Assembly (NCBI GenBank): GCA_013696975.1
Contig: JACCXO010000026.1
Coordinates: forward strand, 1 to 37,948
Length of the DNA: 37,948 nt
Reading direction: 5' to 3'
From: Nocardioidaceae bacterium
GTDB taxonomy: Bacteria > Actinomycetota > Actinomycetes > Propionibacteriales > Nocardioidaceae
Positions 15,180 to 32,702 of this stretch are shown one piece after another. Below the pieces are notes generated by a model. That model did no database searches, was not told the DNA's origin, and saw only the letters and a list, made by a program, of their open reading frames with translations. The first letter of the stretch is position 1. Every line of letters begins with the position of its first letter. The translations under genes were made by a program, and so were the position numbers.

Positions 15180-15509
15180 TCAGCGGCTCTGCAGTTCTTC
15201 GCGCGCGACGCGGCGGGCAATGTCTTCGACCTCGGCCGAGGTGAGTTCACCGACGGGGCGTTCATGTACGGCCTGCCGGAGCAGGCGGCGCACCAGCGCG
15301 GAAGTAGGAATGTGTTCGGCGGCGGCCTGCCGGCGCAACCGTGCATCCAGCTCTCTGTCGATGCGTAGATGTAACGGGGTGTCCAGCGCGCTGGCCTTTT
15401 CAGCGATCTCAGCCTCAGCGGACTCGGCCTCTTCCTGAGCGACCTCGGCGAGGATCGCTTCATGTCGGTCTCGGCGAGCGGTTCGCGCCTTCTTGGTGGT
15501 GTCAGCCAT
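15180..15509 (-). CDS. Ribbon-helix-helix (CopG/BrnA-like) antitoxin-type protein
   Basis: ALDTPLHLRIDRELDARLRRQAAAEHIPTSALVRRLLRQAVHERPVG is RHH-like; ATG overlaps the upstream stop (TGATG). Confidence 0.8.
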   Translation of the reverse strand: MADTTKKARTARRDRHEAILAEVAQEEAESAEAEIAEKASALDTPLHLRIDRELDARLRRQAAAEHIPTSALVRRLLRQAVHERPVGELTSAEVEDIARRVAREELQSR

Positions 15510-15840: not shown

Positions 15841-15982
15841 TCACGTTGAGCCGGATCATCGCTCAGGTGAGCTGGCACTTTCGGTAGGCGGGGCGTCATA
15901 CGTGCACAGTGTCCTTCTTCCGCCCGAGCGACGCGATTTTTTTGCCTGTAAAGGGGTTAGGAATCGTTGCCAGCCGATTTCC

Positions 15983-16048
15983 TGGCTGCTCGACGCGCAC
16001 TTTCTGGCTGCTCAACACCGATTCTGTGGCTGCTCAACGAAGGTGAGG
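15983..16048 (+). repeat. Three tandem units with exact 22-nt period upstream of lepA
   Basis: TGGCTGCTCGACGCGCACTTTC / TGGCTGCTCAACACCGATTCTG / TGGCTGCTCAACGAAGGTGAGG starting at 15983, 16005 and 16027. Confidence 0.85.
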
Positions 16049-22305: not shown

Positions 22306-24126
22306 ATGGTGACCACGCGAGACGCCGACTCGATCATCGCCGATCGAGCCAGCACTGTCGGCCGCATGTTCTTCGACCGGGTCGAGTCGAGCCGCGATCG
22401 CGAGGCCTATCGCTACCCAGACGGTGACACCTGGACGTCAGTCACCTGGGGCGAGGCCGCTGACCGTGTCGTCAAGCTGTCGGCGGGGCTGATCGCTCTC
22501 GGCGTACAACCCGAACAGCGGGTCGCCATAGACAGTGGCACCCGCTATGAGTGGGTGCTCGCGGACCTCGCCATCATGTCGGCCGGTGCTGCGACCACCA
22601 CTGTCTACCCGTCGACCATCCCCGAAGACATCGCCTTCATCGTGGGAGACTCAGACTCACACGTCGTCTTCGCCGAGGACGACGAGCAAGTCGCCAAGCT
22701 GCGGGAGCGACGCGCGGATCTGCCGGCGCTCTGCAAGGTGGTGACCTTCGACGGTACGACGGACGGCGACTGGGTCATCAGCCTGCAAGACCTCGAGTCT
22801 CTTGGAACAGCGCTGCTTGCGGAACAACCCAACGTCGTCATGGACCGGGTGGAGGGCACTGGCCCCGACAGCCTCGCCACCGTGATCTACACCTCGGGTA
22901 CGACGGGAAGGCCGAAGGGAGTGCGGTTGCGCCACTCTTCCTGGACGTATGAGGCCGCCGCCGTCGACGCGCTCGGCATCTTGTCCGCCGACGACGTGCA
23001 GTTCTTGTGGCTGCCACTGGCTCATTCCTTCGGCAAGGTATTGCTGACTATGCAGCTCGCCATTGGTTTCCCGACAGCCATCGACGGAAGGGTCGAGAAG
23101 ATCATCGACAACCTGGCTGTCGTGCGTCCCACCTTCATGGGGGCGGCGCCTCGGATATTCGAGAAGGCGCACGCTCGTATTCACCGCACGACCGCCGAAG
23201 AGGGCGGAGTGAAGAAGAAGATATTCGACCGTGCATTCACCGTCGGCAAGGAGGTGTCTCGGCGCGAGATCGCCGGTGAAAAGGTGCCGCGGCGTCTTGC
23301 CGCCCAACACCGGGTTTATGACCGGCTGGTCTTCACCAAGATCCGCGACAGGTTCGGGGGACGGGTGCGATTCTTCATATCCGGTGCGGCCGCGCTCAAC
23401 CGGGATATCGCGGAGTGGTTCCACGCCGCCGGCATCTTGATCCTCGAGGGCTACGGACTGACAGAGACGTCCGCCGGCAGTTGCCTCAACCTGCCGTCGC
23501 ACTACAAGTTCGGCACGGTCGGACCGCCGTTCCCCGGCACGGAGGTCAAGGTGGCCGACGACGGTGAAGTTCTCATCAAGGGGCCGGGAGTGATGGACGC
23601 TTATCACAACCAAGACGGCCCTACTCGCGACAGCTTCGATGACGGTTGGCTCCGCACCGGCGACTTGGGCGAGGTTGACGCGGACGGCTTCCTCCGTATC
23701 ACCGATCGCAAGAAAGACCTCTTCAAGACGTCCAGCGGAAAGTATGTCGCGCCGCAGATCATCGAGGCGCGGTTCAAGGCGGTGTGCCCCTACGTGAGCC
23801 AGTTCGTGGTGCACGGCAACGAGCGCAACTTCTGCTCGGCTCTTGTCACGCTGGACCCTGACTCCATCGACGAGTGGGCGGCACGCAACGGGCTCGGCGG
23901 ATCGTCATACGCTGAGATCGTCTCCTCCGACCACGCTCGCGAGATGGTTCAGGGGTATGTCGACGAGCTGAACTCCCGGCTGAACCGCTGGGAGACGATC
24001 AAGCGCTTCATCATCCTCGACCACGACCTGTCGGTCGAAGCAGGTGAGATCACCCCCAGCATGAAGGTGAAGCGTAAGGTCGTCGAAGAGCGCCACCGCG
24101 ACGAGCTCGACTCCCTCTACCGTTGA
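22306..24126 (+). CDS. fadD: Long-chain acyl-CoA synthetase (AMP-forming)
   Basis: VIYTSGTTGRPKGVRLRHSS, GYGLTETSAG, DGWLRTGDLGEVDADGFLRITDRKKDLFKTSSGKYVAPQ. Confidence 0.93.
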   Translation: MVTTRDADSIIADRASTVGRMFFDRVESSRDREAYRYPDGDTWTSVTWGEAADRVVKLSAGLIALGVQPEQRVAIDSGTRYEWVLADLAIMSAGAATTTVYPSTIPEDIAFIVGDSDSHVVFAEDDEQVAKLRERRADLPALCKVVTFDGTTDGDWVISLQDLESLGTALLAEQPNVVMDRVEGTGPDSLATVIYTSGTTGRPKGVRLRHSSWTYEAAAVDALGILSADDVQFLWLPLAHSFGKVLLTMQLAIGFPTAIDGRVEKIIDNLAVVRPTFMGAAPRIFEKAHARIHRTTAEEGGVKKKIFDRAFTVGKEVSRREIAGEKVPRRLAAQHRVYDRLVFTKIRDRFGGRVRFFISGAAALNRDIAEWFHAAGILILEGYGLTETSAGSCLNLPSHYKFGTVGPPFPGTEVKVADDGEVLIKGPGVMDAYHNQDGPTRDSFDDGWLRTGDLGEVDADGFLRITDRKKDLFKTSSGKYVAPQIIEARFKAVCPYVSQFVVHGNERNFCSALVTLDPDSIDEWAARNGLGGSSYAEIVSSDHAREMVQGYVDELNSRLNRWETIKRFIILDHDLSVEAGEITPSMKVKRKVVEERHRDELDSLYR

Positions 24127-24184
24127 CCGGTCAGTCCCGGCCCGTCGAGTGGTCGGTCCCCGCCCGTTGAGTGGTCGGTCGTGA
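24119..24184. repeat. 22-nt-period tandem repeat at the fadD 3' end
   Basis: ACCGTTGACCGGTCAGTCCCGG / CCCGTCGAGTGGTCGGTCCCCG / CCCGTTGAGTGGTCGGTCGTGA at 24119, 24141 and 24163. Confidence 0.85.
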
Positions 24185-24207
24185 CCCCGGCTGGCTGAGA
24201 GAATGGC

Positions 24208-25440: not shown

Positions 25441-25971
25441 CTAGCTGAGAAAGCGGATGCAGAGGGGGTAGCGGAAGTCGTCGCCTTTGCTGGCGGCGAC
25501 GGTGCCCATGATGATGGCCACCAGTGCGAGCAACATGATCACCAGCGCGACTGGGATAATGACAAAAAGGCCCAGGCCCAACGTGAAGACCGCGAGCAGG
25601 GCGGCTATCAGTGAGTAGAGCAGCAACGACAGCTGGAAGTTCAGTGACTCAGTGGCATGGCGCTTGACGAAGGGTGAAGAGCCGCCCTTGATGAGCAAGA
25701 TCACCAGCGGAGCGATAAAGCCCATGGCGAACCAAGCCGCGACGAGCACACCGATGTGTGCGGCGAGTGCCCAGGTCTTGTCGTCGTCTGCGGGAGCTGA
25801 GGTGCCGAGATGGCCCTGGTTGGGCGGCAGATAACCCGTGTGCGGGGCGGGGTAACCCGGGTTCGGCTGTGGATGGCCCTGGTTGGGCGGCGCGGGGTAG
25901 CCCTGGTTGGGCGGTGGATGACCCTGGTCCGGCGGTTGGCTCGGCTGCTCAGGTGACGGTGGGTAGGACAT
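25441..25971 (-). CDS. DUF4870-like membrane protein with Pro/Gln/Gly-rich repeat N-terminus
   Basis: DDDKTWALAAHIGVLVAAWFAMGFIAPLVILLIKGGSSPFVKRHATESLNFQLSLLLY. Confidence 0.88.
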   Translation of the reverse strand: MSYPPSPEQPSQPPDQGHPPPNQGYPAPPNQGHPQPNPGYPAPHTGYLPPNQGHLGTSAPADDDKTWALAAHIGVLVAAWFAMGFIAPLVILLIKGGSSPFVKRHATESLNFQLSLLLYSLIAALLAVFTLGLGLFVIIPVALVIMLLALVAIIMGTVAASKGDDFRYPLCIRFLS

Positions 25972-26988: not shown

Positions 26989-27063
26989 GCCTCAAGCCAA
27001 GGGCAGGACGTCAGCCTCAAGCCAAGGGCAGGGCGTCAGCCTCAAGCCAAGGGCAGGGCGTCA
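26989..27063. repeat. 25-bp x3 tandem repeat spanning the MBL gene stop codon
   Basis: GCCTCAAGCCAAGGGCAGG(A/G)CGTCA at 26989, 27014 and 27039; units differ at one position. Confidence 0.95.
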
Positions 27064-27965
27064 ATACCGGCTGGTGGGCCGGATGAGGTCGTGGCTGGGC
27101 TCTCACCGAGCTGCTCGTAGCCACGAGCGATCCCGTCTGCCAGCTTGTCGGCGGGGAACGGCCAGTCGCCGCTGGACGGCAGTGCCTCACCGACGGGCAC
27201 TCCCTGCGAGTGCAGGGAGCAGATCAGCTGCGCGACCGTCGAGACGTCTTCTCGCTGGTCCTGCACGAACTGCTTGTCGACGGGCACCCCATGACCCGGT
27301 ACGACGACTGACGCCTCCGTGAGCAAGCCCACCACGAAGTCGAGGGAACCGGGCCACTCCAGCGGCCAGCAGTCGCTACCGAAGCCAGGTGGCGCTGACT
27401 GCTCGATGAGGTCACCGGCGAAGATCACTTCGGCATCCGGGACCCGCAGCACCAGGTCACCGTCGGTGTGGCCGCGGCCCGGATGGACGAGCTCGACATA
27501 GCGGTCGCCGAGATCGATGGTGGAGACCGACTCAAACGTCTGATCGGGCGCCCGGAGTGAGGTTGCCAGGACATCCGCCAGCACCTCGGCGGTGATGTCT
27601 GGATAGTCGGGGTCGACCTCGGGACTCCGCGCGATCATCTTCTTGATCCGTGCCGCCGCCACGCCCAGTCCTGCCGCGGCATTGGCGTGGGCGTGGATGG
27701 CGGCGGCCTCGGGCATGGCGATGTTACCGAAGGTGTGGTCGAAGTGTTGGTGGGTGTTCACGACCCAGCGGATCGGCAGGTCGGGGGCGAGCCGACGTAC
27801 GTCATCGAGCAGTTCACGACCCTGCTCGGCAGATGCCCGCGTGTCAACAAGCAGGACCCCGTCTGATCCGATCACCGCACCCACGGTCACGTCCCACTGG
27901 GGATATCGCGCGATGAACACGCGGTCGCCGATCTCGGAGAAGCGGTGAGTCTGGAGGCCTGCCAT
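27042..27965 (-). CDS. MBL fold metallo-hydrolase
   Basis: WVVNTHQHFDHTFGNIAMPEAAAIHAH, HPGRGHTDGDLVLRVPDAEVIFAGDLIE, VVPGHGVPVD. Confidence 0.92.
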   Translation of the reverse strand: MAGLQTHRFSEIGDRVFIARYPQWDVTVGAVIGSDGVLLVDTRASAEQGRELLDDVRRLAPDLPIRWVVNTHQHFDHTFGNIAMPEAAAIHAHANAAAGLGVAAARIKKMIARSPEVDPDYPDITAEVLADVLATSLRAPDQTFESVSTIDLGDRYVELVHPGRGHTDGDLVLRVPDAEVIFAGDLIEQSAPPGFGSDCWPLEWPGSLDFVVGLLTEASVVVPGHGVPVDKQFVQDQREDVSTVAQLICSLHSQGVPVGEALPSSGDWPFPADKLADGIARGYEQLGESPATTSSGPPAGIDALPLA

Positions 27966-30478: not shown

Positions 30479-31210
30479 GTGACCCTCCCAGTCTTCGTGG
30501 TCGACGCCGAGGCCCTGCAGCGCGACATGATCGAGCTCGGCGGTGACGAGGGTCGGCATGCCGTCGTCAAACGGGTTCGGGTGGGTGAGCGCGTCGTCCT
30601 GACCGACGCCCAGGGCGCTGGCGCCGAGTGCGCTGTGGTGTCTGTGTCGCGGCAGGGGCTCGTTGCCCAGGTGCTTGTACGCCGGTTCGAGCCGGTGGCC
30701 GTTCCCCACCTGACCGTCGTACAGGCGATCCCTAAAGGCGACCATGCTGAGCGGGCTGTCGAGCTGCTCACCGAGATCGGCGTCGACACCATCGTGCCCT
30801 GGGCCGCCTCCCGCAACGTCGTGAGCTGGCGTGGGGAGCGAGAAGCGAAGGCCCTGCAGCGATGGCGATCGACCGCGCATGCCGCCGCCAAGCAGTCGCG
30901 ACGGCTGCGCTTTCCCGAGGTGACAACGCTCCACACCACGGCAGAGGTGGCAGACCTGGTCGACACAGCCGATCTGGCGTTGGCGCTTCACGAAGGTGCG
31001 GCGGAGCGACTCGGCGACTTCGTCATACCCCAGTCCGGAACGGTCATTCTCGTCATAGGCCCAGAAGGTGGCATCACTGAGGACGAACTCGCTGTGCTCT
31101 CCGGGCGAGGCGCGCAGACCGTCAGGCTGGGCGCCTCTGTGCTGCGCAGCTCGACCGCCGGCGTCGTCGGTGCAACCGCTGTGCTCAGCCGCACGTCACG
31201 CTGGACCTGA
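30479..31210 (+). CDS. rsmE: 16S rRNA (uracil(1498)-N(3))-methyltransferase RsmE
   Basis: ALPKGDHAERAVELLTEIGVDTIVPWAASRNVVSW-type region (here AIPKGDHAERAVELLTEIGVDTIVPW), LVIGPEGGITEDELAVL. Confidence 0.93.
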   Translation: MTLPVFVVDAEALQRDMIELGGDEGRHAVVKRVRVGERVVLTDAQGAGAECAVVSVSRQGLVAQVLVRRFEPVAVPHLTVVQAIPKGDHAERAVELLTEIGVDTIVPWAASRNVVSWRGEREAKALQRWRSTAHAAAKQSRRLRFPEVTTLHTTAEVADLVDTADLALALHEGAAERLGDFVIPQSGTVILVIGPEGGITEDELAVLSGRGAQTVRLGASVLRSSTAGVVGATAVLSRTSRWT

Positions 31211-31220
31211 CAAGAGCCTC

Positions 31221-31271
31221 GGTCAACGGGCGGGGAGTGACCGGTCGAGGGGCGGGGAGTGACCGGTCAAC
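31221..31271. repeat. 22-nt-period tandem repeat downstream of rsmE
   Basis: GGTCAACGGGCGGGGAGTGACC (31221) / GGTCGAGGGGCGGGGAGTGACC (31243) / GGTCAAC (31265, partial). Confidence 0.88.
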
Positions 31272-31339
31272 TTGACCTTGGCGTGAGACGGTCCCCGTCA
31301 CGCTGGTGGCTGTATCCGTCGATCACCGAGGCGTCGAGT

Positions 31340-31374
31340 GGAAACTTGAAGCCAAATACTGGCGCCAAGTTTCC
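31340..31374. terminator. Structured hairpin in the convergent rsmE / Gmad2-gene intergenic region
   Basis: GGAAACTTG-aa-GCCA-aatac-TGGC-gc-CAAGTTTCC: 9-bp outer stem, 2x2 internal loop, 4-bp inner stem, 5-nt loop. Confidence 0.55.
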
Positions 31375-31457
31375 AAGTGACGGGCGAGCATCGACTTTCA
31401 CCCGACGGGGAGCCTCACATCGAGAGACAGACTGTGGCTCGTCGCGAGTCGAGGCGG

Positions 31458-32702
31458 CTATTCGACTCGAAACGTCTTGTCGACGATGTTGATGGGACGA
31501 CCGTCCTCCGCGCTGGACTCGAAACAGCGGATCGAGTATGTGCCTTCCTCGAGCATGCCCAGCTCGATGTCCGCCTGTCGCCAGACGCCCATGGCGGTGG
31601 TGACGAAGCCGTCATCCAGCTTCGTTCCCGCCTCGTCGTACAACTCCCAGTTGACGTGGCCCTCGAAGACGTTGGCAGACACCGTCACCGTGACCGGGTT
31701 CGAGACCCTTTGCCCCTCGACGGGGGTGACGATATCGATCCACGCTCGCACCTCCTCATCGGGCATCGCCCGTAATGGGTCGAGGCGTACGCCGGTCGAC
31801 TCGTCGATGATCTCCCCGTTGTAGGCGAACCGTGCCTCGCCCTCGACCCCCGCTGTACGAAGGAGCGCCTGGTAGTACAGGAGAATCTGATCCTGCTGGT
31901 GCTTCGGCGAACCGATGAGGTGATCCCCTTCGAGGAAACCTTGATCCTCTGACGTTGGACCCTCGGGACCTTCGAGTGCGATTGTGGTGGTCTGTCCTGA
32001 CTGGGAGACATCCACGACCTGCAAGTCCGGCCTTCCCATCATTACCGGCATTAGGTCAGGGTCGATGGGAAGGGAGGTCCACCACTCTTGGACAGCAGCG
32101 AGGGCGTCTTCGGGCACGACCGGCAGAGTGTGCGGTTCGGCGTACAGGCGTCCCTCCGGCCCGACGTAGTACATCGTGACCTGGCGGTCCGCTGGAGCAT
32201 TCGGGTCGTAGACCCCCTCGTGTGTACCGGCCGGCTCCACGCCTGTCGGTTCAGTCGCGGTCGGCTCCGCCACAGTTGGTACCTCACCAGTCGGTTCAGC
32301 CTCCGTCGGCTCGGTCCCGGTCGGCTCTGAAGCGGTGGGCTCTGAAGCGGTGGGCTCTTGCTGAGTTGGCTCGGTCTGACTTGGCTCGCTCTGGGTTGGT
32401 TGGGTCGCGGGTGGTGCCGAGTTATCGGCCCCCTGGTTCCCGATCAAGACCACCGTGGTGATGACGGCTGCGGTGGCGAGCCCTGCGCCGAAGGCACCGC
32501 CGAGCCAGCCCCAGCTTGGGCGACCCGCATTCGTCCGGCTCGTCCACCCTCCCGTGCCCCGCGCTCGGTCGGACGAATAGCCGGCGGCGATGCGCTCCTG
32601 GATCCGCTGCAAGGCGTCAGGATGCGGTTGAGTGAAGGCTGCTTCTTCGTTGAGGGCTTGGGCGAGCAGCTCAGCGGTCCGGTCGTCGTCATACGTGTTC
32701 AT
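31458..32702 (-). CDS. Membrane-anchored protein with GerMN-like and Gmad2-like domains and a TEPT-rich linker
   Basis: Cytosolic N-terminus, one TM (WLGGAFGAGLATAAVITTVVLIG), Thr/Glu/Pro repeat linker, VTMYYVGPEGRLYAEPHTLPV (GerMN-like), WIDIVTPVEGQRVSNPVTVTVSANVFEGHVNWELYDEAG (Gmad2-like). Confidence 0.8.
   Translation of the reverse strand: MNTYDDDRTAELLAQALNEEAAFTQPHPDALQRIQERIAAGYSSDRARGTGGWTSRTNAGRPSWGWLGGAFGAGLATAAVITTVVLIGNQGADNSAPPATQPTQSEPSQTEPTQQEPTASEPTASEPTGTEPTEAEPTGEVPTVAEPTATEPTGVEPAGTHEGVYDPNAPADRQVTMYYVGPEGRLYAEPHTLPVVPEDALAAVQEWWTSLPIDPDLMPVMMGRPDLQVVDVSQSGQTTTIALEGPEGPTSEDQGFLEGDHLIGSPKHQQDQILLYYQALLRTAGVEGEARFAYNGEIIDESTGVRLDPLRAMPDEEVRAWIDIVTPVEGQRVSNPVTVTVSANVFEGHVNWELYDEAGTKLDDGFVTTAMGVWRQADIELGMLEEGTYSIRCFESSAEDGRPINIVDKTFRVE

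Follow-up and report, generated by a model that had tools for sequence, protein, structure and literature searches.

The window analysed here (37,948 nucleotides, contig JACCXO010000026.1 of a Nocardioidaceae bacterium) contains three short tandem arrays with a common unit, which consists of the core GTYGASNRGYCR followed by a variable 10-nt tail. The reverse complement of the core includes CTCRAC. The arrays are:

Array 1, 15973..16038, minus strand: three 22-nt units (16038-16017, 16016-15995 and 15994-15973) of subtype A (GTYGAGCAGCCA+N10)
Array 2, 24122..24187, plus strand: three 22-nt units of subtype B
Array 3, 31206..31271, minus strand: subtype B, two good units (31271-31250 and 31249-31228) and a degenerate third unit (31227-31206)

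Array 1 is located in a divergent gap of ~550 bp, with a CopG/RHH gene (15180-15509, minus strand) on one side and lepA on the other. The lepA assignment had been made in the earlier note and was confirmed by a match to the LepA_C domain. On the minus strand the three units of this array (the lepA array) read GTTGAGCAGCCACAGAATCGGT, GTTGAGCAGCCAGAAAGTGCGC and GTCGAGCAGCCAGGAAATCGGC. Upstream of Array 2 is an AMP-binding gene (22306-24126) whose stop codon, TGA at 24124-24126, falls within the first unit of the array, and a radical-SAM (hemW-like) gene is found downstream. Array 3 lies between two convergent genes, an RNA methyltransferase gene (30479-31210, plus strand) and a Gmad2-domain gene (31458-32702, minus strand). 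Subtype A, represented by the lepA array, is characterized by NAGCCA and an A/T-rich tail, and subtype B, represented by the arrays at 24122 and 31271, by NGGTCA and a C-rich tail.

The earlier note had described a triple repeat, TGGCTGCTC(G/A)AC at 15983, 16005 and 16027, and the 22-nt spacing was found to be exact when re-read on the window sequence. The repeat is present as described, but a minus-strand reading fits better and the full array extends over 15973-16038. The other two intergenic loci, which had been assigned to the same family, fit the unit GTYGASNRGYCR plus tail at 24122-24187 (plus strand) and 31228-31271 (minus strand). In the window there are 6 occurrences of the pattern GTYGA-N17-GTYGA as compared to 0.53 expected, and none of 100 shuffled sequences reached 6.

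Other repeats were also seen in the window. A near-perfect array of three 25-nt units (GCCTCAAGCCAAGGGCAGGGCGTCA, 98% matches) at 26989-27063 overlaps the 3' end of a minus-strand gene (27042-27965); its unit differs from that above and it possibly represents another array family. A compound 21/45-nt array of the CCTGGTTGGGCGG type (25809-25936) is contained within an open reading frame (25441-25971, minus strand), and an inverted repeat, GGAAACTTG...CCAAGTTTCC, is located at 31338-31378 between the convergent genes near Array 3.

Distribution and gene context of the arrays

In the source genome (a 1.88-Mb assembly that is 82.5% complete; counts were obtained from pattern searches and fetched stretches) the three-unit pattern gave 12 matches and the reversed control 0, and a two-unit motif with 2 mismatches allowed gave 48 matches as compared to 0 for the control. 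The idea of one repeat family with a 22-nt period was thus borne out by many further arrays in the genome. When the search was carried on to relatives, GTYGA arrays were found in 25 of 99 genomes, some of these being single chance-like matches; the second half of the unit was often different while the period was kept. The array-bearing genomes include members of Nocardioides, Aeromicrobium, Serinicoccus, Humibacillus, Intrasporangium and Sinomonas, with up to 35 array matches per genome and 0 control matches in ten of the genomes from these genera. Outside the actinobacteria there were a few scattered matches that look like unrelated microsatellites. The array periods in relatives were mainly 22 nt and also 21, 31-32, 17 and 34-38 nt. 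In line with the helical phasing proposed in the earlier note, most of them (21, 22 and 31-32 nt) nearly equal whole helical turns, and periods of 17, 34 and 38 nt are exceptions.

Gene context was assigned with a simple, home-made gene finder, and among 89 intergenic arrays 43 were found in convergent, 39 in co-directional and 7 in divergent gaps, as compared to 22, 47 and 21 expected from gap counts with gap length left out (chi-square test, p = 2×10−7). Arrays lying in sense behind a gene mostly start no more than 40 bp past its stop codon, and in 12 cases, including 24124-24126, the stop codon TGA is contained in the first GTTGA. Within co-directional gaps there were 26 sense and 13 antisense arrays (p = 0.05). 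A promoter function, which had been suggested for the arrays, was not supported, because few arrays are found in divergent gaps and gene 3' ends are preferred; the lepA array, a solitary copy in a divergent gap, is rare and atypical for the family. At loci L071-L089 and L226-L241 a C-rich, G-poor stretch often separates the stop codon from the first unit.

With regard to RNA structure, inverted doublets of a relative were predicted to fold strongly (z = -7.7 and -10.4), and the three window arrays gave z = +1.4 (the lepA array), -1.25 and -2.8, with no consistent fold. No known RNA family in Rfam matched the arrays and no tRNA was found.

The AbiEi-EDxHD gene and its matching arrays

The arrays are associated, in a cognate-specific manner, with a partner gene that encodes a ~300-aa protein, one half of which is of the AbiEi DNA-binding type and the other of the EDxHD/Vsr endonuclease type. 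In the source genome (G000) this gene has an intact open frame (312 aa) and is located on a contig other than that of the window (C133:10657-11547), with a clear subtype A array on one side only and degenerate units on the other. A gene matching subtype B was not found in this 82.5%-complete assembly. In a genome of the same genus (G002) the gene is flanked by a unit very similar to subtype B.

The PADLOC AbiEi models matched residues ~12-180 of the protein (E down to 1×10−15) and Pfam MTES_1575/DUF559 matched residues ~225-296, several of the latter matches being below the curated cut-off. In an AlphaFold2 model built from five homologues (pLDDT 85, pTM 0.82), the N-terminal half matched AbiEi (6y8q, E = 1.4×10−5) and the C-terminal half matched the catalytic domain of I-Bth0305I (3r3p, E = 0.014, probability 1.0, TM 0.67 on the target). 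With residues numbered as in the L104 protein, members flanked by arrays show conservation of E200, D232, E243, D245, H250 and D259; in these members the catalytic E/D/E/D/D residues are nearly invariant and the histidine is present in 45 of 53. AbiEi and Rv2827c monomers bind 23-bp repeats, without cross-reaction (PMC7319586), in agreement with each 22-bp unit being bound by one protein. The suggestion in the earlier note that proteins are bound at phased units thus gains support at the level of homology, from the likeness to AbiEi and from an AbiEi-type gene adjoining arrays of the same unit.

Gain and loss of gene and arrays between species was observed at one convergent junction compared across 16 Sinomonas species. 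Species-specific arrays are located behind both convergent genes wherever an extra gene, encoding a ~300-aa protein and sitting at that one junction in many species, intervenes; in three species (L236, L239 and L241) the junction has neither the gene nor the arrays. In one species (L230) there is one unit per side and the two together form a perfect hairpin. The gene was seen between inverted arrays in Sinomonas, in G002 and in Nocardioides J54, and homologues near arrays in other genera, as found by profile search, were mostly flanked by inverted arrays. The association was also evident for homologues chosen by HMM alone with arrays ignored: 21 of 57 had arrays on both sides as compared to 2 of 192 control genes (Fisher's Exact Test, p = 2×10−13), and inverted matching units were present beside 13/57 homologues and 0/192 control genes. 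Among the 20 members scoring at least 260 bits (a set that includes a few loci originally obtained from array searches), arrays were found on both sides of 17, on one side of 3 and on neither side of 0, and more distant paralogues were often without arrays. In a phylogenetic profile, 6 of 7 genomes with a close homologue contained at least 5 GTYGA arrays as compared to 0 of 30 without one (p = 3×10−6). Outward-facing arrays were seen at a single locus, L201, and at L251 (in G004, where no GTYGA arrays were found in the genome) a homologue reported with an in-frame TAG is flanked by 22-nt arrays of another unit. No relative was found in viral contigs, and carriage by viruses was rejected.

The units flanking the AbiEi-EDxHD genes are entirely different from genome to genome, and a gene's own unit was predictive of the dispersed arrays in the same genome, and vice versa. 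In a forward prediction across 59 genomes, the unit flanking the gene of G008, which is without GTYGA, had 92 matches in G008 and at most 1 in each of the 58 others. Most of the matches in G008 are inward-facing pairs that fill the space between convergent genes, and gene-less pairs are abundant; the CGAGGTGT units flanking a second gene of G008 match a second array family of the same genome. In the reverse prediction, all five tandem-array families at one convergent junction (from G008, G270, G286, G288 and G301, four of them independent given that the G008 match was already known from the forward search) matched a homologue of their own genome and no other locus, with scores of 30-40 as compared to at most 18 for any other locus. 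G270 has three array-flanked genes and the junction unit picked exactly one of them. Palindromic elements at the junction in G296 and G300 matched no flank of AbiEi-EDxHD genes. These GGTTGAG...CGAAACC palindromic doublets (L388 in G296 and L399 in G300) occupy the same convergent junction and may represent an additional family of repeats that has a different partner.

Unit similarity tracks protein similarity (Mantel r = 0.45), part of which linkage alone would give. At the convergent junction used for the reverse prediction, a comparison of G008 with 20 congeners showed the two stop codons almost adjoining in nine (-4 to 31 bp apart) and arrays of other units in others. In G008 the similarity of units is higher within one arm (0.88) than between different loci (0.70), which indicated that arms also expand locally. 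Neither a target-site duplication nor a fixed spacer was found, the spacers of doublets being variable. Two arms resemble each other no more closely when they share a doublet than when they come from different loci, and copying between arms is thus not supported. A fixed mobile doublet with a conserved spacer was rejected, given the variable spacers and the dissimilar arms, as were insertion sequence ends, given that the genes between distant inverted arrays at several loci are ordinary chromosomal genes.

Interpretation and comparison with known systems

The arrays in the window are probably dispersed copies of a family that belongs to an AbiEi-EDxHD gene elsewhere in the genome and has spread by nuclease-linked copying. 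One AbiEi-type winged-helix domain would bind one ~22-bp unit and the EDxHD half would nick or cut at or beside the array. Repair of the break may then place copies of the array at new sites, either alone or together with the gene, and insertions would survive only behind stop codons. Each array of the window would then be an old arm of such a pair, now solitary. With somewhat less confidence, we favour the view that these are an undescribed class of actinobacterial mobile repeats, in which one AbiEi-EDxHD gene lies between inverted tandem arrays, gene-less pairs are dispersed in trans to gene 3' ends and each nuclease lineage recognises its own ~22-bp unit. No description of such an array-nuclease system was found in the open literature, subscription papers being outside the search. 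To call the class categorically new rests on no system being described in the searchable literature, and the milder term variant would apply if any pair of an enzyme and dispersed repeats is regarded as one kind.

The main rival to nuclease-linked copying is homing. Pairs of arrays would be resident, perhaps terminator-like sites with some other means of spreading; the endonuclease would cut pairs that lack the gene, and recombination between the arms would copy its gene into them. In favour of homing are the likeness of the C-terminal half to I-Bth0305I, an EDxHD homing endonuclease, the abundance of gene-less pairs in G008 and the situation in Sinomonas, where many species have the gene at one junction and three others lack both gene and arrays there. 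However, the arms are inverted and are not a split direct site, the Sinomonas gene and arrays are gained and lost together, and it would be left unexplained how arrays with the unit of the resident gene reach many loci; we therefore consider homing unlikely. It is less likely still that the arrays serve the host as 3'-end elements (bidirectional terminators or supercoil/nucleoid sites), with the AbiEi-type protein as a regulator and the nuclease secondary or a defence sparing, or titrated by, self arrays. Such a role agrees with the strong preference of the arrays for positions just past stop codons and between convergent genes, with the strong RNA folding of doublets and with the PADLOC AbiEi matches, but the junction is nearly gapless in nine congeners and occupied by unrelated sequences in others, which indicates that no particular array is needed, and the lepA array is without RNA structure.

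The exact helical-scale period and the conserved core agree with the reading in the earlier note, i.e. phased binding sites acting as a promoter, regulatory or nucleoid element with no mobile partner. This appears highly improbable given that divergent gaps hold 7 of 89 arrays as compared to 21 expected and that the one-to-one match with a gene would be unexplained. Neutral tandem slippage, with unrelated local duplications sharing a 22-nt period by chance, agrees with the local expansion of G008 arms, but the same motif occurs at many unrelated loci per genome with 0 control matches and equals the flanks of one gene, so that the probability of this explanation is negligible.

If nuclease-linked copying is true, a part of the large unexplained actinobacterial AbiEi/DUF559 family would have a role, and the pairing of array and nuclease would account for one class of the repeats found between genes in these genomes. 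Since the presumed recognition unit stands in tandem at the flanks of each gene, dozens of natural pairs would allow protein-DNA specificity to be deduced from sequence, and these pairs make the long-standing question of what AbiEi/DUF559 proteins recognise directly testable.

Repeated ~20-bp subterminal sites are also present at the ends of Tn7-type and IS21-type transposons; in contrast, the gene enclosed here is the AbiEi-EDxHD fusion and no DDE transposase was found among the enclosed genes examined. The N-terminal ~170 aa match AbiEi of the AbiE type IV toxin-antitoxin systems and share its fold, but here a nuclease domain is fused to it and the arrays are dispersed genome-wide. No adjacent AbiEii nucleotidyltransferase toxin was found, with one gene only between the arrays at the Sinomonas loci. 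EDxHD homing endonucleases (I-Bth0305I) and Vsr-fold restriction endonucleases (MTES_1575, DUF559) have the same C-terminal fold and the catalytic E, D, H and D; EDxHD homing endonucleases sit in a group I intron or intein, whereas the gene here is free-standing between inverted arrays at a convergent junction.

REP/REPIN-RAYT systems have in common with the arrays an enzyme gene flanked by the repeat, dispersed extragenic copies and inverted doublets. REPIN doublets form hairpins and singlets have been read as remnants (PMC3116915); here the repeat-flanked gene and the inverted doublets are likewise found, the doublets in G008, and the window arrays are solitary. REP/REPIN sequences are short palindromes, whereas the arrays are direct tandem repeats, mostly with a 21-32-nt period and with no consistent palindrome by inspection. 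RAYT is a Y1 transposase, whereas the enzyme here is an AbiEi-EDxHD fusion, and the Y1 (HUH) transposase domain PF01797 was found in 0 of 9 array-bearing genomes and in 5 of 14 control genomes. Given that no Y1 transposase is present and that the repeats are not palindromes, the arrays do not belong to REPIN/RAYT. The resemblance is one of logic, and if nuclease-linked copying is true the REPIN/RAYT way of life, with one enzyme and many short dispersed repeats, would have evolved again with an unrelated nuclease.
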